Below, one piece after another: positions 6,249 to 56,690 of a stretch of DNA of 64,000 nt (position 1 is the stretch's first letter; each line of letters starts with the position of its first letter). The notes below the pieces were generated by a model. The model searched no databases and was not told the origin of the DNA. It saw nothing but the letters and a program-made list of their open reading frames with translations. The stretch covers positions 1 through 64,000 of the forward strand of contig CANIBZ010000007.1 in the NCBI GenBank assembly GCA_947466425.1, read 5' to 3'. This DNA comes from Flavobacteriales bacterium (GTDB lineage: Bacteria > Bacteroidota > Bacteroidia > Flavobacteriales_D > Sanyastnellaceae). Position numbers and translations under genes: made by a program.

Positions 6249-8870
6249 TTATGCTTCCTCTATTTTTTCACCTTCTATTTCTTTTCGGAAGACAAGTGTT
6301 CCTTCGAACATATCGAGCACTACGGGGGCAGTTTTATCTATAGTTCCGGCAAGTAAGTGTTTCGAAAGAATATTCAACACGTCTTTCTGTAACACACGCT
6401 TAACAGGGCGCGCGCCAAATTGCGGATCGTATCCTTTTTCGCTGAGCCATTCCAGTGCTTCAGGAGAAACCTTCAAGACAATGTCATTCTTGCGAAGACG
6501 TTGCGCTAAAATGTGCAATTGAATGGTTACAATCTCGCGCACTTCTTTTCGCAGTAACGGAGGGAACATGATCACTTCGTCTATGCGATTTAAGAATTCA
6601 GGTCGAAGTGACTTCTTCACCACTTCCATTACTTCTTCTTTCGTTTTTTCGAAGAGTGAAATCAAGTTGGTTTTATCGTCAACGTGATTGTAGTTTTCTT
6701 GAATAATGTGCGAACCAATGTTGCTGGTCATAATCACAATCGTATTCTTGAAATTCGCAACGCGACCTTTGTTGTCGGTTAACCTTCCGTCATCTAAAAC
6801 TTGAAGTAATATATTGAATACATCGGGATGTGCTTTTTCTATCTCGTCGAGCAACACAACAGAGTATGGTTTTCTTCGAACGGCTTCGGTCAATTGTCCG
6901 CCTTCATCGTATCCAACATAGCCCGGAGGCGCTCCTACCAAGCGAGACACACTGTGCTTCTCTTGAAACTCGCTCATGTCTATGCGTGTCATGGCGTTCT
7001 CATCATTGAACAAATATTCGCTCAATGCTTTCGCTAATTCAGTTTTTCCAACTCCCGTTGTTCCCAAGAAAATGAACGATCCAATCGGACGCTTCTCATC
7101 GCTCAACCCAGATCTGTTTCTGCGTACTGCATCGCTCACTGCGGCAATGGCTTCTTGTTGTCCAACGACGCGCTTGTGCAATTCCTCTTCCATGCGCAAT
7201 AATTTTTCGCGCTCGCTTTCCATCATGCGCGAAACAGGAATGCCTGTCCAAGCCGCAACCACATCCGCAATTTCTTCCGGATCAACTTCTTCTTTAACCA
7301 TCTTGGTGTTGGTTTGAAGTTTTTGAAGTTCTTCGCGATCGACTTCAATCGCTTGTTCTTTATCGCGAATTTTTCCATAACGAATTTCAGCAACCAACCC
7401 GAAGTTTCCTTCGCGCTCGGCTTGTTCTGCCTGAACCTTGAAATGTTCAATGTCTTTCTTCGCTTGCTGAATGCGCTCTACAACATCTTTCTCTGCTTTC
7501 CACTGTCCGTACAATCCGTTGCGCTCTTCTTGAAGATTTGCGATTTCTTCGCCAATTTCATTCAAACGCGTAACATTGTTTTCGCGCTTGATGGCTTCTC
7601 GTTCAATTTCAAGTTGAAGAATTTTGCGTTCGATTTCATCGAGCTCAACTGGTTTGGAATTTATTTCCATACGCAACCGCGAAGCGGCTTCGTCAATTAA
7701 ATCAATGGCCTTGTCTGGAAGGAAACGGTCACTGATGTAGCGGATTGAAAAATCCACTGCCGCAATAATGGCATCGTCTTTTATCTGCACCTTGTGATGC
7801 GATTCGTATTTTTCTTTCAATCCGCGAAGAATAGAAATCGCATCTTCTCGGCTTGGTTCGTTCACCATGACTTGCTGAAAGCGACGCTCAAGGGCCTTGT
7901 CTTTTTCAATGTACTTCTGATATTCATTGAGCGTAGTTGCGCCAATTGCTCGCAGTTCTCCGCGAGCTAAAGCAGGCTTCAAAATGTTCGCCGCATCCAT
8001 GGCACCTTCGCCACCGCCTGCGCCAACGAGCGTATGAATTTCATCGATGAAAAGAATCAATTGGCCATCGCTTTCTTGCACTTCCTTCACCACCGATTTC
8101 AATCGTTCTTCAAATTCGCCTTTGTATTTCGCACCGGCTACAAGCGCACTCATGTCTAGGCTATAGACGGTTTTGTCTATCAGGTTTTCAGGCACGTCTT
8201 TGTTAATGATTCGGTGCGCAATGCCTTCAGCAATGGCTGTTTTTCCAACGCCAGGTTCACCAATTAAAATCGGATTGTTTTTCGTTCTGCGTGAAAGAAT
8301 TTGAAGCACGCGACGAATTTCTTCATCGCGACCTATCACAGGATCGAGCTTTCCGTCTTGCGCGAGCTTGTTTAGATTCTTCGCGTATTTTTCCAATGAC
8401 TGAAACGTTTGTTCTTGTGTGGAAGACGTTGCACGTTGTCCTTTGCGCATGTCGAGCAGCAATGCCTTCAAGTCTTTGCTGTTTACCCCGCGGTCTTTCA
8501 GCAATTGAGCAGAAGCATCTTTCGTATCCATCATTCCCAATAGCAGATGCTCTACTGTAACGAAATCGTCTTTCATGCTTCGCGCTTCGGCGCTTGCACG
8601 CTGAAGCATGTCGGTTGCATTTCGACTTAAATTAATTTCACCACCGGTAACCTTCGGAAGTTTATTCAACTCAAGTTGAACTGAATTGCTAACGGCTTCA
8701 AGAGTGGTGTTGAATTTTTTCAATATAAATGGAAGAATGCGATCGTCTTCTTCGAGTATACCTTTCAAAAGATGTAATCCCTCTATGCTGCCATGACCCA
8801 TGCTCATTGCAATTTGCTGAGCACGTTGCACACTCTGTTGTGCTTTAAGTGTGAATTGTTCGAAGTTCAT
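6249..8870 (-). CDS. clpB: ATP-dependent chaperone ClpB
   Basis: 873 aa; [13 protein letters not shown] and [16 protein letters not shown] Walker A motifs; ClpB N-domain and middle coiled coil. Confidence 0.97.
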
Positions 8871-8926
8871 TTGTCTAAAATTAAATTATTTGTTGCGTTG
8901 CCTTCAATAGCCTCGCCGAGGAGCAA

Positions 8927-8947
8927 ATTCGGAAATATTTTCCGAAT
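8927..8947. promoter_or_regulatory. Perfect 9-bp inverted repeat upstream of clpB
   Basis: ATTCGGAAA-TAT-TTTCCGAAT, about 57 bp upstream of the clpB start codon. Confidence 0.45.
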
Positions 8948-9021
8948 GAATACTGATTGAAGTGTCTAAAAGACAGATTGCTCTTGAGTTTCACGACGAA
9001 AAGTCTTGATTTAAATCATTT

Positions 9022-9225
9022 AGATGCTTTGCAAGATGTTACACAAGATGTTACACAAGATGTTACACAAGATGTTACACAAGATGTTACACAAGATGTT
9101 ACACAAGATGTTACACAAGATGCTTCGCAAGATGCTTCACAAGATGCTTCGCAAGATGCTTTGCGAGATGCTTTGCGAGATGTTTCACAAGGTTCTGCGA
9201 AAGATTCTTCGAAAGGTCCTACGGA
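9022..9225 (+). repeat. 12-bp tandem array of mini-palindromes (AGA/AGG + TNN-NNN-NNA)
   Basis: 17 consecutive 12-mers: TGCTTTGCA, 7x TGTTACACA, TGCTTCGCA, TGCTTCACA, TGCTTCGCA, 2x TGCTTTGCG, TGTTTCACA, TTCTGCGAA, TTCTTCGAA, TCCTACGGA; decayed units continue to about 9261. Confidence 0.95.
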
Positions 9226-9279
9226 AGTTCTTGCGCAGCATCTTCGGGACGACCTTGCACAGCATCTTTATTTACAAGT

Positions 9280-9645
9280 TTATTTAAAAGTGGAAATCCC
9301 TGCTATTAATCCTATACAAGCAATATTCGTTACCAAAATATTGGTGACAGCCCACCCGAATTGCTGTTGTTGAAACAATTGAACCGTCTCAAAACTAAAG
9401 GTGCTGAAAGTGCTCAAACCGCCGCAGAGTCCTGTTGTTAGGAAGAAGAGCGTGCGCGGAGAGAGGTTCGATTTATTCGTTAAAGCGAAGGTGATTGCAA
9501 TAATAATGGCTGCTGAAATGTTGGCGAGTAGCGTTCCAATTGGAAGTGAAATATTTCCCATTTTAAATGGAATTCCAATGAGGTAGCGAAGAACAGATCC
9601 AATTCCTCCGCCAACAAAAATGAGTGCAAGCGTTATTCCGTTCAT
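9280..9645 (-). CDS. crcB: Fluoride efflux transporter CrcB/FluC
   Basis: GGGIGSVLRYLIG...GTLLANISAA...TTGLCGGLSTFSTFSFE. Confidence 0.93.
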   Translation of the reverse strand: MNGITLALIFVGGGIGSVLRYLIGIPFKMGNISLPIGTLLANISAAIIIAITFALTNKSNLSPRTLFFLTTGLCGGLSTFSTFSFETVQLFQQQQFGWAVTNILVTNIACIGLIAGISTFK

Positions 9646-10202
9646 CGTTTAATGAATGCGAATAGTTTGTAGAAGACATACCCGAACATTCCGCCCATGA
9701 TCCAACCCATGAGAATGTCGGTAGGGAAGTGAACACCCAAATAGATTCTCGAAAGAGAAGTAAGTATCGTTGCCAGTATCAAAATTGTTTTCAAGCGGTA
9801 ATGCCTTGGCAACGCAAGTAAAACGAAGAATGTAAGCGCAGCGAAATTACTAGCGTGAGAAGAATAAAATCCGAATTCACCTCCGCGGTAATCGTTGCCG
9901 TTACTGTCTTTCGCATAATGCAAAACGTCTTTAAGATTTTCGTCGTAGGACGGACGGTGTCTTTGCACCGTTGGTTTGAAAATGCGACTTGAAACGAGGT
10001 CACTCATTCCAATGGAAAGGGAAGCAAGGATGACTGCATAAATGCCGAATTTTTTTCCGTGAGTTGTTACGAATTGCCAGATGATATAAATGAAAAGAGG
10101 AATCCAAATGAGGGTTCCGCTTATCACAAGCATTGCTCTGTCTAATCCATAAATATAAAGTCCATTTATAGCTTTAAGCAAGGCAATGTCAAGTTCAATC
10201 AT
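9642..10202 (-). CDS. PAP2-family phosphatase
   Basis: Phosphatase motifs VQRHRPSY, FYSSHASN and SRIYLGVHFPTDILMGW. Confidence 0.9.
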   Translation of the reverse strand: MIELDIALLKAINGLYIYGLDRAMLVISGTLIWIPLFIYIIWQFVTTHGKKFGIYAVILASLSIGMSDLVSSRIFKPTVQRHRPSYDENLKDVLHYAKDSNGNDYRGGEFGFYSSHASNFAALTFFVLLALPRHYRLKTILILATILTSLSRIYLGVHFPTDILMGWIMGGMFGYVFYKLFAFIKR

Positions 10203-36432: not shown

Positions 36433-37122
36433 GTGGAACCCTACCAAGAAAATAGTTTGAACAATACCGCGGTGAACAAATCGCGCACGCGTGAATTGAA
36501 GCAAACGGCAGACGGCTCGTTCACGTTGTTTATTCCGGAAGTGGAAGAGACTTATCACAGCACGCACGGCGCGGTGCAAGAATCTATGCATGTCTTTATT
36601 GAAAGCGGATTGAAGGCGTGCGACAAAGAAGAGATTCGCATTTTGGAAGTGGGCTTGGGAACGGGATTGAATGCTATGTTAACCCTTCAACATGCAACAA
36701 AAAAGATTCACTATTGCGCGCTCGAGCCTTATCCGTTGTCGAAGGAAATCTTGGAAGAATTATCGGCGAGTCGAACGGATCAATTCGAAATGAAATTTCA
36801 TACTTCTAATGTTGGCGAATGGATTTCACTACAAGAAAATTTTTCATTTGTTCGAGTGGAAGTGGGGTTGGAAGAATTTTCTTCCGAAGAGAAATTCGAT
36901 GTCATTTATTACGATGCCTTTGGACCTCGCGTAGAGCCTGGCTTGTGGACGCTAGCGCGTATGCAACAGTGTTTCGACTTGTTGAATGAAGGCGGCATCT
37001 TCGTCACCTATTGCGCGAAAGGCGAAGTACGTCGCAATCTTCAAGCGGCGGGGTTTGTGGTGGAAAGGTTGGCGGGGCCGCCGGGCAAGCGCGAAATGCT
37101 TAGAGGGGTGAAACCCCTCTAG
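36433..37122 (+). CDS. mnmD: tRNA (5-methylaminomethyl-2-thiouridine)(34)-methyltransferase MnmD
   Basis: LEVGLGTGLNAMLTL, YYDAFGPRVEPGLWTLARM, GGIFVTYCAKGEVRRNLQAAGF, GPPGKREMLRG. Confidence 0.9.
   Translation: MEPYQENSLNNTAVNKSRTRELKQTADGSFTLFIPEVEETYHSTHGAVQESMHVFIESGLKACDKEEIRILEVGLGTGLNAMLTLQHATKKIHYCALEPYPLSKEILEELSASRTDQFEMKFHTSNVGEWISLQENFSFVRVEVGLEEFSSEEKFDVIYYDAFGPRVEPGLWTLARMQQCFDLLNEGGIFVTYCAKGEVRRNLQAAGFVVERLAGPPGKREMLRGVKPL
37101..37121. repeat. Perfect 9-bp-stem hairpin spanning the mnmD stop codon
   Basis: TAGAGGGGT-GAA-ACCCCTCTA; the terminal TA plus the following G forms the TAG stop. Confidence 0.95.
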
Positions 37123-37173
37123 AATGTCTTTCAGACGAATGCCTACGGCGAATGCTTCGCGAATGTCTGCGAC
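37122..37173 (+). repeat. GAAT-spaced mini-palindrome array, locus B1
   Basis: gaat GTCTTTCAGAC gaat GCCTACGGC gaat GCTTCGC gaat GTCTGCGAC. Confidence 0.95.
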
Positions 37174-37328: not shown

Positions 37329-39884
37329 ATGAAAAGACTTTTACTATTCAGTTTGCTAGTTATTATTTTTCAAACTACGAACGCCCAACGCCTAATTCCT
37401 TATGTGGCGAATAACCAAGAATACATATTAAACGATTCGTTTGATGATTTCTCTTGTTTTGATCTGGAAGTATTCCAAGACTCCATGTACTTAGCTGTGA
37501 GATCATCGGAGAGTATGAACCGTAAGAGTATTGCAGTCTATAAGAATAATGTTCTTTATGAGGCAAATATTGTTGACAATGGTTATCATTTTAACGCCTA
37601 TGATTTGCTCGCTGTTGGTGATCAACTTTTCGCTGTTGGGAATATAGTAGATCCAGGATTTCAGGCTGCTCATCCAACAGTCGGAGTGCTTACCAACGGG
37701 TCTTGGAATTATTACAGTTTTAATAACTTCCAATTTATCAAGTTTCAATACGCGAGGTTTTTCAATCAAAAATTATATCTTTTTGGAAGGAATGGCGACC
37801 CTGTGTTGGAATTTTCAAATGGTGAATTCACTGATACGGGAATTGATGGTGTCTCAGATGCACAAGTTTTTGGTGATAAATTATATTTCATTAAATATTT
37901 CGACCCCGGATTGTTTTCTTTGGATGTGAATGGTAATGTTGTTCAAGTTGACCTGCCTTGTGGTTTATTGAATGGTTTTAGTCTCTTGAATGGTAGCATA
38001 TATGTTTCTGGAAGGTGCGATGATTTTTTATATCGCTTAGACAACAACGGAACATGGGTGCCAGATGACCTTTCTTTAGATTGGAGTAAGTTCGACACGA
38101 AAAAATTAGTTGAGGTATTTAGAACCGCTTCTGGCTACGTAGGGAACTTCTCGAGTTATCATAGAGAGAACTCGAATTATTTCGCCACTATTGAGTCTTA
38201 TGCTTTACAAGATCAAGTATGTCTTTTTGGAAGAGTGCAAAATGTAGTACAATTTGAAAACAAGGATTGGTCGGCATGTATTCCAAACGCGGATGGTCCC
38301 TCAGGAGGACTAAGTGTTGTAGAGAAAGGATTGAAAGGTCAAGCAATTCAAAATGAGAATTTGTACAAGTTTAATACGCCCTCCTTTGGTTTTTTTGACG
38401 AACAATCAAACTCTATTAACTCAGATAAATTTGAACCGGGACTTTTTTACAAAAATAAATTGCTAACATCATCATCCGTTGTTGAAGTATTCGGAGTTAA
38501 AAGTGATATGACGGTTACCGGATACGGTGGACAGACTGCTTCAGGTTTGAATAGCTCTTATGCAGGGCCAGTAGCAAGTGAATACGGGAACGATTACCTG
38601 AAAAAATACCATCGGATTTGGCAAGTGTCTCAAGCGGAAATTGATTACCACAATAACCATTGGTATGAGGCGAATTATTCAGCACCGCCCGATCTGTTGG
38701 AATGGCCGGGGAATGGAGATGCCCTGAATGGAGAACCGCAAGTGTTAGCTCCTTTTCACGATGTAAACGGAAACAATATTTATGAACCTCAGTTTGGAGA
38801 CGCGCCTGAAATAAAAGGAGATGAGGCTTCTTTTTACATAGTTTCAGATGGAAGAGAAATTACCAGTGAATATCAGCCGATTGAAACAGCTCGGAATAAA
38901 TCGAATGTTGAAATAGGTGTAATGAATTATTTGTTCAAGAATTCAAATAACGAAGCGTTAGCTCATACTTTATTTACAGATTACAGACTTATTCTGCGAG
39001 ATACAGAACCGTTACAGAATACTTTATTCGGATTTATTGAGGAGTACGTCTTAGGCAATCCTCTCGATAATTATGTTGGTTCTGATGTTCAAAGAAATAT
39101 GGTTTTTGGTTACAATGGAGATGATTTCGACGAATCTTCTGCCGCCTATCCCGGATATGGTTATGAGGTTCCGGCTTGTGGTTTGGTTGGATTGAATGCG
39201 CCAATAAACGCAGCAATGTATTTTATGACAATACCAGGAACTGCAGAATCTCCAATTACTAATTATGACCACTATAATTACATGAGTGGCTTAGACATGG
39301 ATAGCATTTTTGCAATAAACATTTTTACGCAGGAACTTACAACGTTTATGTATTCAGGTGAAGTCGGGGTGAGCGATGTATGGAATGAGGCTAATAACCA
39401 AAATTACCCCTATGATCGTCGAATGGTTGCATCTTTCCAAGTAGGTGAGCTTTTGCCAAATGAGCCGGTATGTCTCTCGTTTGCAAGGGTTGTGGGCTCA
39501 GACACTTTGACTGGCGGCAGCCAATCTTTGAACGCAGTTTACAAAATGAAACAGTATTCAGACGAAGTGCAGCAGTATTACGACCAATACCTTCAAACCA
39601 CCGATTGCAATCAGTTAGTAGGCATTGAAGAAGTGAATGAAGAGTTGTTTGGTGTTCACGTGTTTCCGAATCCGGCTAAAGAAAAGATTACCATTCAAAC
39701 TACACGAAGTTCCATTTCTAAAATTGAATTATTCAATATTGTTGGAAGTCTCGTTCACAGTGAAACATGTTTGAAAACTGCCAATACGAGTGTGGACATT
39801 AGCGCTTATACCCCAGGTCTTTATTCCGTTCGAATTTATTTGAAAGACGGAACAACTGAGGTGAGAAAAATTATTGTGGAATAA
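37329..39884 (+). CDS. Secreted protein with T9SS type A sorting domain (paralog 1)
   Basis: Signal peptide MKRLLLFSLLVIIFQTTNAQ; C-terminal VFPNPAKEKITIQTT...GLYSVRIYLKDGTTEVRKIIVE. Confidence 0.9.
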   Translation: MKRLLLFSLLVIIFQTTNAQRLIPYVANNQEYILNDSFDDFSCFDLEVFQDSMYLAVRSSESMNRKSIAVYKNNVLYEANIVDNGYHFNAYDLLAVGDQLFAVGNIVDPGFQAAHPTVGVLTNGSWNYYSFNNFQFIKFQYARFFNQKLYLFGRNGDPVLEFSNGEFTDTGIDGVSDAQVFGDKLYFIKYFDPGLFSLDVNGNVVQVDLPCGLLNGFSLLNGSIYVSGRCDDFLYRLDNNGTWVPDDLSLDWSKFDTKKLVEVFRTASGYVGNFSSYHRENSNYFATIESYALQDQVCLFGRVQNVVQFENKDWSACIPNADGPSGGLSVVEKGLKGQAIQNENLYKFNTPSFGFFDEQSNSINSDKFEPGLFYKNKLLTSSSVVEVFGVKSDMTVTGYGGQTASGLNSSYAGPVASEYGNDYLKKYHRIWQVSQAEIDYHNNHWYEANYSAPPDLLEWPGNGDALNGEPQVLAPFHDVNGNNIYEPQFGDAPEIKGDEASFYIVSDGREITSEYQPIETARNKSNVEIGVMNYLFKNSNNEALAHTLFTDYRLILRDTEPLQNTLFGFIEEYVLGNPLDNYVGSDVQRNMVFGYNGDDFDESSAAYPGYGYEVPACGLVGLNAPINAAMYFMTIPGTAESPITNYDHYNYMSGLDMDSIFAINIFTQELTTFMYSGEVGVSDVWNEANNQNYPYDRRMVASFQVGELLPNEPVCLSFARVVGSDTLTGGSQSLNAVYKMKQYSDEVQQYYDQYLQTTDCNQLVGIEEVNEELFGVHVFPNPAKEKITIQTTRSSISKIELFNIVGSLVHSETCLKTANTSVDISAYTPGLYSVRIYLKDGTTEVRKIIVE

Positions 39885-39903: not shown

Positions 39904-42462
39904 ATGAGAAAAATTTTACTTTTTATCCTTGCTTGTATTGCATGTGAGTTAACACACGCCCAACGCCTCGTGCCCTTTGTAGCAAATAACCAGCAACACA
40001 TCTTGAACGATTCGTATGATAGTTTCCTCTGTGACGACGGAGAAGCATTTCATGATTCTCTTTTTCTCTCAGTTAATTACGGTGACACGCTTAATCGCCC
40101 TGCATTGAAAGTGTTGAAAGGTGACACCCTCTCCGATGTGCCCTTGGATTGGGATACGAAATTTGGTAGAGTTTACGACTTGTTCAGCACCTCAGAAATG
40201 CTCTGTGCTGTGGGGACCAAGAAAGATTCAATCACAAATATTTCATACGCAAATCTGGCAATATTAGAGAATGGGGTTTGGAGTGAATACAGCTATCCCG
40301 ACTATACAAGATTCAGCTTCGGAACCGTATTTAGTAACAAAGTATTTTTGTTCTCAAACTTTACAAGTAAAGTGTGCTTTTTTGAAAATGGAAGTTTTTA
40401 TCCAACCTATTTAGATTCTGTGATAGATGCGCAGGTTTACGATGATAAAATGTTTTACATCAAAGAGGGCTTTTCAGGAATGTATTATATCGATACTCTT
40501 GGCGTTACGCACTCGGAAGAAATAGCCTGCGATTCTTTGATGCGTTTCAGTATGATAGACGGACAGCTATTTGTTTCCGGAAAATGCAGTGAATTTTTGT
40601 TTAGAAGAACTGAAAGCGGAGAGTGGGTGTTTGATGATTTAGGTATGGATTTTAGTGTGTTCAACACTACGAAATTGGGAAATGTTTTTCGAACTCAAAG
40701 AGGCTACTTGGTCAGTCTTACGGCACATGTCCGATCTCAAGGATTTGACTTTATGGGAGGCGATTCTTTTGACCTTGCAAAAAAAACCGAATTAAGCAAA
40801 TACGTTGTTAATGTAATAAATTTCGAAGGAAGGGAGTTTGCAATATGCAGGGGAAGAGCTATTTCTGACGATGGCGCTTGGGGCGGGATTTGCACAGTGC
40901 AAAATGGCTGGAGGCATCAGTTCATCTCAAATGAATTAGTTTCTGAGAGGTCTTATCCTGCTTTCGGCTCATATATGTACGAAAGTGCATACGGCAATAT
41001 AGAGTCTAGACCAATTGGCCTGAACTACAAGAATAAAAGGATTGTATATGCATGTGATCAGCTTTTATATGGAATGAAAGGCGATGTTGTCTCTGGTGTT
41101 GGTGGATTATTCGAATCAGGTTTGAATGGGGCTTACTCTGGGCCATTTGCCAATGCGTATTCGAACAATTTCGCACAAAAATACAATCGCACATGGAAAG
41201 TAAAACAATCCGAAATCGAATACCACAATCAACATTGGTACGAAGCGAATTATTCGGCTCCAATTGATATTTTGGAATGGCCAGGAAATGGTTCTGTGAT
41301 CAATGGCGAGCCACAAATAATTGCGCCGTTTCACGATGTGAATGGAAACAATATCTACGAGCCACAATTTGGAGATGCGCCAGAAATCAAAGGAGACGAG
41401 GCAGCATTTTATATTGTTTCAGATGGAAGAGAAGTTTCACCAACTTATCTAGATTCTAATTTCGGAAATACAGTTTCGAATCTCGAAATGTCAGTCATGA
41501 CGTATCTTTTTCAAAACTCTACCAATGCGGCTTTAAGTAATTCAGTCTTCACGGATTATCGCATAGTCAATCGTGACGAAACTCCTTTGAACGAATTTTA
41601 TTTCGGAATGCATACAGATTTTGATGTTGGAACGTCTTATGATGATTTCATTGGATGTGATAGCACGAGAAATTTAGTTTTCGGATACAATGCAGATGAT
41701 TTTGATGAGCCGTCGAGCTCGTCCTATGGATACGCCAATGAAGTTCCGGCTTGTGGTTATCGATTATTAAATAGGTCGGTAACATCGAGTGTTTATTGTT
41801 ATAATAGTTCAAACCCGGTTTATGGAGGGCCTAATTCTAACGAGCAAGCGTATCGAGTTTTGCAAGGAAAGCGGATTGATGGTTCTTCAATTTTGAATCC
41901 AATAACTCAGCAGCAAACCTCTTTCATGTACAGCGGTGAGGTGGGAGTGCCTGGTGTTTGGAACGAAGAGAATGTTGGAAATACTGGTGGCGATCGACGC
42001 CTGATAGTTTCTGCTTTTGTTGGTGATCTTCAACCCAACGTTCCGCTGTGTATTTCCGTTGCACGTATTGTAGGCTCTGATACATTGTCAGCTGGCAGCC
42101 CTTCAGTAAATGCGGTTTACAAGATGAAGCAATATTCAGATGAAGTGCAGCAGTATTACGACCAATACCTTCAGACGACCGATTGCAATCAGTTGGTTGG
42201 AGTGGAAGAGGAAAGTGAAGATGCTTATGGAGTGAACGTATACCCCAATCCATCGAGTGATCGAGTAGCAGTACAAACAACACGAAGCTCTATCTGTAAG
42301 GTTGAGTTATTTAATCCAATTGGAAGTCTTATTTACAGCGAATCTGGTCTCGAAGTGGGCGCAGTAATTATCGAAATAAATGCTCTCGCTACGGGTTTGT
42401 ATTCTGTTCGCGTGTACTTAAAAGACGGAACAATTGAAGTGAGAAAAATTATTGTTGAATAA
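39904..42462 (+). CDS. Secreted protein with T9SS type A sorting domain (paralog 2, tandem duplicate)
   Basis: Shares RLxPxVANNQxxILNDSxD, PFHDVNGNNIYEPQFGDAPEIKGDEA and YKMKQYSDEVQQYYDQYLQTTDCNQLVG with the preceding gene. Confidence 0.9.
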   Translation: MRKILLFILACIACELTHAQRLVPFVANNQQHILNDSYDSFLCDDGEAFHDSLFLSVNYGDTLNRPALKVLKGDTLSDVPLDWDTKFGRVYDLFSTSEMLCAVGTKKDSITNISYANLAILENGVWSEYSYPDYTRFSFGTVFSNKVFLFSNFTSKVCFFENGSFYPTYLDSVIDAQVYDDKMFYIKEGFSGMYYIDTLGVTHSEEIACDSLMRFSMIDGQLFVSGKCSEFLFRRTESGEWVFDDLGMDFSVFNTTKLGNVFRTQRGYLVSLTAHVRSQGFDFMGGDSFDLAKKTELSKYVVNVINFEGREFAICRGRAISDDGAWGGICTVQNGWRHQFISNELVSERSYPAFGSYMYESAYGNIESRPIGLNYKNKRIVYACDQLLYGMKGDVVSGVGGLFESGLNGAYSGPFANAYSNNFAQKYNRTWKVKQSEIEYHNQHWYEANYSAPIDILEWPGNGSVINGEPQIIAPFHDVNGNNIYEPQFGDAPEIKGDEAAFYIVSDGREVSPTYLDSNFGNTVSNLEMSVMTYLFQNSTNAALSNSVFTDYRIVNRDETPLNEFYFGMHTDFDVGTSYDDFIGCDSTRNLVFGYNADDFDEPSSSSYGYANEVPACGYRLLNRSVTSSVYCYNSSNPVYGGPNSNEQAYRVLQGKRIDGSSILNPITQQQTSFMYSGEVGVPGVWNEENVGNTGGDRRLIVSAFVGDLQPNVPLCISVARIVGSDTLSAGSPSVNAVYKMKQYSDEVQQYYDQYLQTTDCNQLVGVEEESEDAYGVNVYPNPSSDRVAVQTTRSSICKVELFNPIGSLIYSESGLEVGAVIIEINALATGLYSVRVYLKDGTIEVRKIIVE

Positions 42463-42509: not shown

Positions 42510-42580
42510 GAATGTCTATGACGAATGCCCTTTGGGGGAATGTTCTTTGAACGGATGCTTCTCGAAAGATTTTCAAACGG
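42510..42580 (+). repeat. GAAT-spaced mini-palindrome array, locus B2
   Basis: gaat GTCTATGAC gaat GCCCTTTGGGg gaat GTTCTTTGAAC ggat GCTTCTCG..., decaying downstream. Confidence 0.88.
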
Positions 42581-44321: not shown

Positions 44322-44375
44322 AAATGTCTTTCAGACGAATGCCCTTCGGGCGAATGCTTCGCTAATGTCTGCGAC
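44322..44375 (+). repeat. GAAT-spaced mini-palindrome array, locus B4
   Basis: aaat GTCTTTCAGAC gaat GCCCTTCGGGC gaat GCTTCGC taat GTCTGCGAC. Confidence 0.95.
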
Positions 44376-45324: not shown

Positions 45325-45378
45325 GAATGTCTTTCAGACGAATGCCCTTCGGGCGAATGCTTCGCGAATGTCTGCGAC
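45325..45378 (+). repeat. GAAT-spaced mini-palindrome array, locus B5
   Basis: gaat GTCTTTCAGAC gaat GCCCTTCGGGC gaat GCTTCGC gaat GTCTGCGAC. Confidence 0.95.
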
Positions 45379-46725: not shown

Positions 46726-46768
46726 GAATGTCTTTCAGACGAATGCCCTTTGAACGAATGTCTACGAC
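46726..46768 (+). repeat. GAAT-spaced mini-palindrome array, locus B6 (+ arm)
   Basis: gaat GTCTTTCAGAC gaat GCCCTTTGAAC gaat GTCTACGAC. Confidence 0.92.
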
Positions 46769-55181: not shown

Positions 55182-56660
55182 ATGTCTCCTCTTGTAATTG
55201 CATTAGTTCTTATTGTGTATTTCATTGCTCTTTTCGCGGTGGCTGTTGTGACATCTAAAAAAGCCGACAACGCTTCGTTTTTCAAGGCGAACAAAAGTGC
55301 GTCTTGGGTGTTGGTTGCTTTCGGAATGATAGGCACCTCGCTTTCAGGTGTGACCTTTGTTTCAGTGCCAGGAACCGTGAGTATTGTGGGTATGCAGTAC
55401 TTCATGATGGCACTCGGATTTTTTGCAGGATACTTTGTCGTGGCGTATGTGCTCTTGCCGCTCTATTACAAATTGAATTTAACTTCCATCTACTCGTATT
55501 TGGAACAACGCTTTGGTTCTCCGGCTTATGAGCTCGGCGCCTTGTTTTTTATTCTTTCACGAACGGTAGGCGCCTCGCTTCGCCTGTTCTTGGTGGTAAA
55601 CGTCATTCAGTTTTTAATTATGGATGCCCTCGGAATTCCATTCGCGGTGACTGCTGGAATTACGTTGCTTATGATTTTAGCATACACCTACAACGGCGGT
55701 GTGAAGACCATTGTGTGGACAGACACCCTTCAAACATTTTTTATGTTGTCGGCCTTGGTGGGATGTGTCATTTATATTTTGAATCAGCTCGGTGGTTGGG
55801 ATGCCGCGTGGCAAGCCATTTCTAGCACGAAGGCCACGAGCGGATTGGATTTGGCTTATGTGTTTAACGGCGATGTTCTGCACAAGAAATTTTTCTTGAA
55901 ACAGTTTTTGGGAGGCGCATTCATTACGATTGCCATGACCGGATTGGATCAGGAAATGATGCAGAAGAACATCAGTGTTTCGAATTTGAAAGACTCTCAG
56001 CGCAACATGATTTCGTTCAGTGCAGTTATGGTGATTGTGGTTGGAATGTTCTTGTTTTTAGGTGCGTTGCTCTTCGTTTACATGCAGCAGTTTCAGTTGG
56101 AAACAGCGTATACGGGTGATGCCATTTTCCCAACGATGGTTATGCAGCACATGCCACCGATTATGGGATTGTTGTTCATTGTAGGGTTGGTGAGTGCGCT
56201 GTTTCCCTCGGCCGACGGGGCTATTACGGCATTGACGTCTTCGTTTTGCATTGACTTGCTTCGCTTTTCGAAAATGGAAAAGACAGAAGAAGAAAAGGCG
56301 AAAATTCGCAAACGCGTGCATTTGGCGTTTACGGTTTTGTTCTTTTTCATCGTCTTGTATTTCCGATGGTTGAATGAAAAGACGATTGTAGATCTGCTCA
56401 TGGATTTAGCCGGATACACCTACGGCCCGTTGTTGGGCTTGTTTGCCTTCGGCATACTTACGCAACGCGTATTGATAGGCAGCAAATGGAATGTGGTAGT
56501 GATTTGTTTGCTATCTCCTGTGATGACTTATTTGCTTGCCATCAATAGTAAGGTTTGGTTCTTCGGCTACGAAATGGGAGCGGAGAATCTAATTGTGAAT
56601 GGTACTATAACGTTCGCCTTACTTTACTTGCGAAGCAGTTCGCGTCAAAATCTTGCGTAG
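55182..56660 (+). CDS. Sodium:solute symporter
   Basis: Polytopic SSS family; ASWVLVAFGMIGTSLSGVTFVSVPG; FPSADGAITALTSSFCID. Confidence 0.93.
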   Translation: MSPLVIALVLIVYFIALFAVAVVTSKKADNASFFKANKSASWVLVAFGMIGTSLSGVTFVSVPGTVSIVGMQYFMMALGFFAGYFVVAYVLLPLYYKLNLTSIYSYLEQRFGSPAYELGALFFILSRTVGASLRLFLVVNVIQFLIMDALGIPFAVTAGITLLMILAYTYNGGVKTIVWTDTLQTFFMLSALVGCVIYILNQLGGWDAAWQAISSTKATSGLDLAYVFNGDVLHKKFFLKQFLGGAFITIAMTGLDQEMMQKNISVSNLKDSQRNMISFSAVMVIVVGMFLFLGALLFVYMQQFQLETAYTGDAIFPTMVMQHMPPIMGLLFIVGLVSALFPSADGAITALTSSFCIDLLRFSKMEKTEEEKAKIRKRVHLAFTVLFFFIVLYFRWLNEKTIVDLLMDLAGYTYGPLLGLFAFGILTQRVLIGSKWNVVVICLLSPVMTYLLAINSKVWFFGYEMGAENLIVNGTITFALLYLRSSSRQNLA

Positions 56661-56690
56661 CATCTTTCGTAGAATCTTCGACTTCGTCGA
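56651..56690 (-). repeat. Mini-palindrome array with AGA (TCT) spacers, overlapping the symporter stop codon
   Basis: Plus strand tct TGCGTAGCA tct TTCGTAGAA tct TCGAC-TTC-GTCGA; same unit type as the 9022 array on the opposite strand. Confidence 0.9.

Follow-up and report, generated by a model that had tools for sequence, protein, structure and literature searches.

Tagged mini-hairpin arrays dispersed through the genomes of a single genus of Flavobacteriales

The array between crcB and clpB and other arrays of the window

The window analysed here is a stretch of 64,000 nucleotides of contig CANIBZ010000007.1, from a genome of the family Sanyastnellaceae (Flavobacteriales; GCA_947466425.1). 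Between two reverse-strand ORFs, identified in the original prediction as crcB and clpB, it carries a tandem array of short palindromic units, which has a TRF score of about 200 (Table 1). As predicted, the array contains 17 in-register 12-mers with an AGA or AGG spacer, seven of which are identical (TGT-TAC-ACA). It had been taken to extend to position 9261; units of the same type do run as far as 9225, but beyond this point the orientation is reversed. The near-universal self-complementarity claimed for the units is borne out, with 14 of the 17 forward units forming a perfect 3-bp hairpin of three Watson-Crick pairs, and the incompletely paired ones, TGCTTCACA (one unit) and TGCTTTGCG (two units), being those already named as exceptions. 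Folding of the array against shuffled versions gives a z of about -4, and positions 8700-9700 have no Rfam match up to E=1. A protein product of the DVTQ frame had been put forward as the finding that could overturn this picture; ORF 8957-9373 is, however, not conserved in congeners at the clpB-crcB gap. The DVTQ frame is translated elsewhere, where arrays sit within other genes.

The window contains a second class of arrays with GAAT as the tag, several of which lie inside one ~10-kb stretch, as well as a further short array of the AGA class, at a slot where the congener G005 also carries an array. Separately, positions 38541-38840 and 41116-41415, and likewise 39414-39673 and 41992-42251, are related by a diverged duplication (72-73%, 2.6-kb spacing) that probably represents paralogous genes.

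Table 1. Genes and hairpin arrays located in the window
Feature	Position	Strand	Description
clpB-like gene	6249..8870	-	ORF; identity from the original prediction; start ~150 bp from array
Forward array	9022..9225	+	17 units of AGA/AGG plus 9-nt mini-hairpin; stems TGC, TGT, TTC, TCC; loops TAC, TTC, TTT, TGC
Reverse-orientation units	9232..9264	-	3 units: TGC-GCA-GCA, TCG-GGA-CGA, TGC-ACA-GCA; spacers TCT/CCT
crcB-like gene	9280..9645	-	ORF; identity from the original prediction; 3' end ~13 bp from array
GAAT-tag array	37101..37173	+	TAGAGGGGT(gaa)ACCCCTCTA, GTCT(ttc)AGAC, GCC(tac)GGC, GC(ttc)GC, GTC(tgc)GAC
GAAT-class array	42514..42551	+	Degenerate copy
GAAT-class array	44326..44375	+	
GAAT-class array	45329..45378	+	
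GAAT-class array	46730..46768	+	Partly degenerate
Short AGA-class array	56654..56690	-	TCT on + strand; TGC(gta)GCA, TTC(gta)GAA, TCGAC(ttc)GTCGA

A common grammar of tags, stems and loops

The arrays are built by one rule, in which a class-specific tag (AGA, ATGA, TCAA, GAAT or GAGG) is followed by a perfect hairpin of 3-6 bp and the whole is repeated. Tags are 3-5 nt and stems mostly 3-6 bp long. The spacer classes, written for both strands, are AGA/TCT, ATGA/TCAT, TCAA/TTGA, GAAT/ATTC and GAGG/CCTC, together with a few minor ones, and the class largely sets the first base of the hairpin, which is T, C, T, G and G for the five tags in the order given above. The number of distinct stems is 21-34 in every one of the four large classes, and more than 100 stem types occur overall. 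Loops of 3 nt reading TNC on one strand and GNA on the other account for 485 of 636 (76%), as against 16% for hairpins outside arrays, and a C immediately precedes the loop in 551 of 706 (78%). One strand of the array units hence bears the C(GNA)G motif of extraordinarily stable DNA mini-hairpins, such as d(GCGAAGC) and CGCGAAGCG (PMC10527192, PMC5430850). Two further loci were noted. Positions 10347-11343 of L179 (contig C1 of G005) hold a further class with 4-nt loops, in which AAC(4 nt)GTT units alternate with GTTGG/GTTAG spacers in an open frame, while a 48-bp tandem repeat at 8580-8880 of L186 (contig C1 of G000, the genome of the window) consists of the hairpins TAC(ttc)GTA, AAC(ttc)GTT and AAAACC(ttc)GGTTTT with spacers ATTGG/ATTCC.

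Pairing was assessed on 12-mers picked by AG[AG] spacer periodicity only, and since the units were chosen by the spacer alone, their full pairing is not an artefact of selection. All three pairs are formed in 461 of 551 such units, against 93 (sd 8, maximum 125) in 2000 shuffles of the 3' arms; some of these loci overlap, and weight is therefore placed on the distinct units (n=143), 75 of which are fully paired against 11 in shuffles. The second pair takes all four Watson-Crick forms, and the other two pairs take two to three of them. The proposal that palindromic units are kept through complementary changes is thus strongly supported, the units of the relatives being palindromic too; non-palindromic units in relatives, named with the prediction as an observation that would overturn it, were not what the comparison showed. 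Larger-scale order is also apparent: where half-arrays of one class stand next to each other in opposed orientation, the tag precedes its reverse complement in 42 of 45 cases (two-sided p ~1e-9). The tested arrays of the TCAA and ATGA classes fold with z of -7 to -11 under DNA parameters and -4 to -10 under RNA parameters relative to shuffles, and one GAAT array folds unremarkably; with standard DNA parameters, the folding energies show no preference for the GNA strand. The anatomy of the arrays is solid.

Restriction to one genus and replacement at conserved slots

BLAST searches with the array region found 43 places, on both strands, in its own genome (G000, a 2.59-Mb MAG) and 14-35 matches in each of seven of the eight congeners, and none in 32 genomes outside the genus. 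In a pattern scan, two hairpin units between AGAT spacers occurred 7-80 times in eight of the nine genomes of the genus and did not exceed the background in 105 genomes from the rest of the family; the TCAA-class pattern is likewise confined to the genus. A structure-first scan was also run, which required at least three perfect hairpins (loops of 2-4, stems of 3 or more) with an identical 3-5 nt spacer between them, an earlier permissive unit detector having been discarded for its high shuffled control. It returned 50 arrays in 0.41 Mb (408 kb) of G000, from stretches partly picked for holding arrays, and 92 in 1.2 Mb of G005, where 660 kb of the C1 contig was unselected; both counts were taken at a score for which shuffled sequence yielded 0, and they refer to draft MAGs read in part. 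In 844 kb of other bacteria the same scan gave 16 arrays against 7 in shuffled sequence; two of the 16 sit on L158, a contig from a congener, and most of the rest lack diverse stems, being identical repeats or A+T-rich chains. An AGA-pattern scan of GTDB contigs yielded mainly chance or coding repeats, and the array-bearing contigs L047, L077 and L158 align to genomes of the genus, as does L136. L158 (CAMCUG010000070.1) is filed under a MAG named Chryseobacterium gleum, has AGA arrays and aligns at 82-85% to this genus; its naming or binning is probably wrong. A viral origin was considered and rejected: IMG/VR gave three TCAA-pattern matches, each of them single and without arrays. Rather than being a lone VNTR, the array of the window belongs to a family of tagged mini-hairpin arrays that extends across the genome and is restricted to this genus of lake bacteria.

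Nearly all array positions are shared between G000 and G005, while the number and kind of units differ. In the clpB-crcB gap, the flanks of which are 79-91% identical across congeners, G000 has 17+3 units, G005 has three reversed units similar to those of G000, G004 has a different composite array and G001 has none. Even the tag class may be exchanged: one slot is occupied by TCAA in G005, by AGA and then TCAT in G000 and by TCAT in G004, and another by ATGA in G005 as against AGG/AGA in G000, G001 and G003, with flanks at both slots mostly 87-95% identical. As the slots are shared while units and tag class differ, the content has been replaced in place, and these comparisons show that the fold of the units is retained while their number, their stems and sometimes their tag class are replaced; from species to species the sequences turn over fast. 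At this species level of comparison (flanks 79-95% identical), copy number varies and pairing is constrained. Identical unit types turn up again over dozens of arrays, and near-identical dispersed copies of whole arrays were not seen. The history originally envisaged for the window array, in which an identical core arose by recent expansion between older flanks that had accumulated compensatory changes, needs amendment in this light. Recent expansion of the core is plausible, and complementary pairing is indeed kept, but compensatory decay in place is insufficient, because unit types recur over dozens of arrays, the orthologous gap differs in congeners and the tag class can be swapped at a slot; content is replaced, not only point-mutated.

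With genes called by a simple ORF rule, intergenic arrays are modestly enriched between convergent genes (24/75 against 67/394 gaps, p=0.004) and depleted between divergent ones. Arrays of the AGA class also lie in frame inside genes, among them those for a family-2 glycosyltransferase, phosphoglucomutase, a Ppx/GppA phosphatase, a cyclase, a DUF4846 protein and lipoproteins. These in-gene arrays are open in one frame, GAT-xyT-NCy'-x'AA, which gives D-x-x-Q/K tetrapeptides.

Possible origins of the arrays

The in-frame arrays raise the question of whether the periodicity is that of a repeat protein made of DVTQ/DASQ tetrapeptides, with the palindromes as a by-product. Open arrays in one frame within several genes would be expected of such a protein, but the arrays are mostly intergenic, many of the non-AGA classes have a unit length not divisible by three, units with in-frame stops exist (TACTTCGTA), the frame at the clpB-crcB gap is not conserved, and base pairing alone accounts for the covariation of amino acids 2 and 4. 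This makes such a protein highly improbable as the source of the periodicity, and a protein-level explanation is rejected for most arrays. A structural function under selection at the ends of genes (as terminator, mRNA 3'-end stabiliser or insulator), for which any class would serve so that selection keeps the slot while the content drifts, is the main alternative that fits the conservation of slots across species despite class swapping. The excess between convergent genes, the deficit between divergent genes and the folding of the tested TCAA and ATGA arrays, far better than that of shuffles, speak for it. We nevertheless regard it as distinctly unlikely, given AGA arrays that sit mid-gene and in frame, many arrays away from 3' ends, the lack of the T run typical of intrinsic terminators, a C(GNA)G loop rule that belongs to DNA and not RNA stability, and the empty clpB-crcB slot of G001.

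Mobility of the REP/REPIN type is likewise an unlikely account, if a somewhat less strained one. On this view an HUH (Y1) enzyme, or another that recognises hairpins, would cut at the tag or use it as its target, inserting and moving units as single-stranded DNA, and the inverted half-arrays would be BIME-like. The tag at the foot of the hairpin and the inverted pairs do recall REP and BIME (PMC3733652, PMC3116915), the arrays are dispersed and of several tag classes, and an array lies within ~300 bp of four of the genus's six Y1 transposase genes. However, Y1_Tnp is missing in five of the nine genus genomes, including G003 (96% complete, 54 array matches), and is present in array-free members of the family, which leaves the Y1 transposase unsupported as an obligatory mobiliser; furthermore, near-identical dispersed arrays were not seen, and at the one Y1 insertion examined the gene has on either side a long conserved palindrome of its own (TGCCCCCAGTGAAGCTGGGGG) that does not resemble the arrays. 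This palindrome marks a separate REPIN/IS200-like element around the Y1 gene, for which an empty orthologous site is found in L136, another MAG, and it also occurs without a Y1 gene. The loci concerned are L230 8349-9133, L136 3225-3277 and L263 about 10130-10165.

There is in our estimate close to an even chance that the arrays are maintained and diversified by structure-dependent mutation at the DNA level, that is, by slippage and template switching at hairpins, with the single-stranded DNA hairpin as the presumptive conserved entity. Such mutation is favoured by the covariation of the arms in all three pairs, the array counts against none in shuffled DNA, the prevalence of TNC/GNA loops, the order of the half-arrays and the replacement of content at shared slots. 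An engine of this kind is judged the most likely because template switching is known to create and repair perfect hairpin stems (PMC8794818) and because it would yield both the covariation and the order of the half-arrays. Hairpins would extrude on single-stranded DNA, chiefly on the GNA strand; the polymerase could then slip by whole units, changing copy number, or the nascent strand could fold back and copy itself, so that perfect arms are re-made in one event and appear as compensatory changes. Fold-back on a larger scale would convert a half-array with tag X into one in which X precedes its reverse complement, the order that a fold-back of the strand copied opposite the GNA hairpins should produce, and exchange between arrays would carry unit types and tag classes from slot to slot. 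Within genes, selection would spare only the frame-preserving 12-bp AGA units, which read as hydrophilic D-x-x-Q/K repeats. Counting against this mutational model, quasipalindrome template switching would have to act on very short stems of 3 bp, and the stem lexicon shared by the arrays requires a postulated exchange process. In E. coli, hairpins are removed by the nuclease SbcD, which was not detected in the genus, in the near-outgroup G007 or in most of the array-free family. Its absence may be seen as a permissive background, but its loss is rejected as the cause, and mutation alone leaves the genus restriction unexplained because SbcD is also missing in these array-free relatives. The conservation of slots and the modest convergent-gene excess could reflect function. 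We also consider, more tentatively, a self-perpetuating DNA-structure element without a sequence identity of its own, propagated by a genus-peculiar hairpin-dependent replication or processing activity; what would be inherited is the grammar, namely the tag with its C(GNA)G mini-hairpin, the inverted half-arrays and the fixed slots.

Several known systems share individual traits with the arrays. REP, BIME and REPIN sequences are also short hairpins scattered mainly over intergenic DNA; each has a short tag at its foot, they often form inverted pairs, and for REPINs compensatory stem changes have been reported. Their tags, however, are GTAG or CGTC, their units measure 20-40 nt against 7-20 nt in the arrays, where tandem runs reach 20, and their stems are conserved within a family, whereas stems are free within an array class; the arrays, moreover, appear to have no obligatory RAYT and also occur in frame within genes. 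Organellar repetitive hairpin elements, such as the sponge RHE and the double-hairpin elements of Allomyces, resemble them in consisting of adjacent hairpins that are dispersed in spacers, sometimes in genes, and lineage-restricted. In sponge RHE the stems are conserved and the loops variable (PMC2800124), while the arrays, which are bacterial and fall into defined tag classes, have variable stems and predominantly TNC/GNA loops. The Rickettsia palindromic elements and the Wolbachia coding palindromes also bring in-frame palindromic DNA into housekeeping genes, but as single multi-codon insertions rather than as mostly intergenic, tandem 12-bp units of variable copy number. PARCEL elements, too, are tandem repeats with palindromic coding DNA, yet they constitute a 75-nt/25-aa DUF285-type repeat spread over distant taxa, in contrast to the mostly non-coding 12-bp (four-residue) units of one genus, and no DUF285-type Pfam match was found in nine array-host proteins. 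Template-switch hairpins formed in quasipalindrome correction share the making or repair of perfect arms in one mutation; they are known as isolated events, and genome-wide tagged tandem arrays of them have not been reported.

No description of such arrays was found in the literature, and the findings point to a DNA-structure-driven process that, as far as our literature search could find, has not been described before in bacteria. Hundreds of short DNA hairpins here retain perfect pairing in a natural setting while their sequences change, which makes directly testable the long-standing question of whether compensatory changes originate by selection or by one-step templated mutation. The arrays also offer an example from bacteria of non-coding hairpin repeats that enter conserved enzymes in frame, and serve as a marker specific to the genus.
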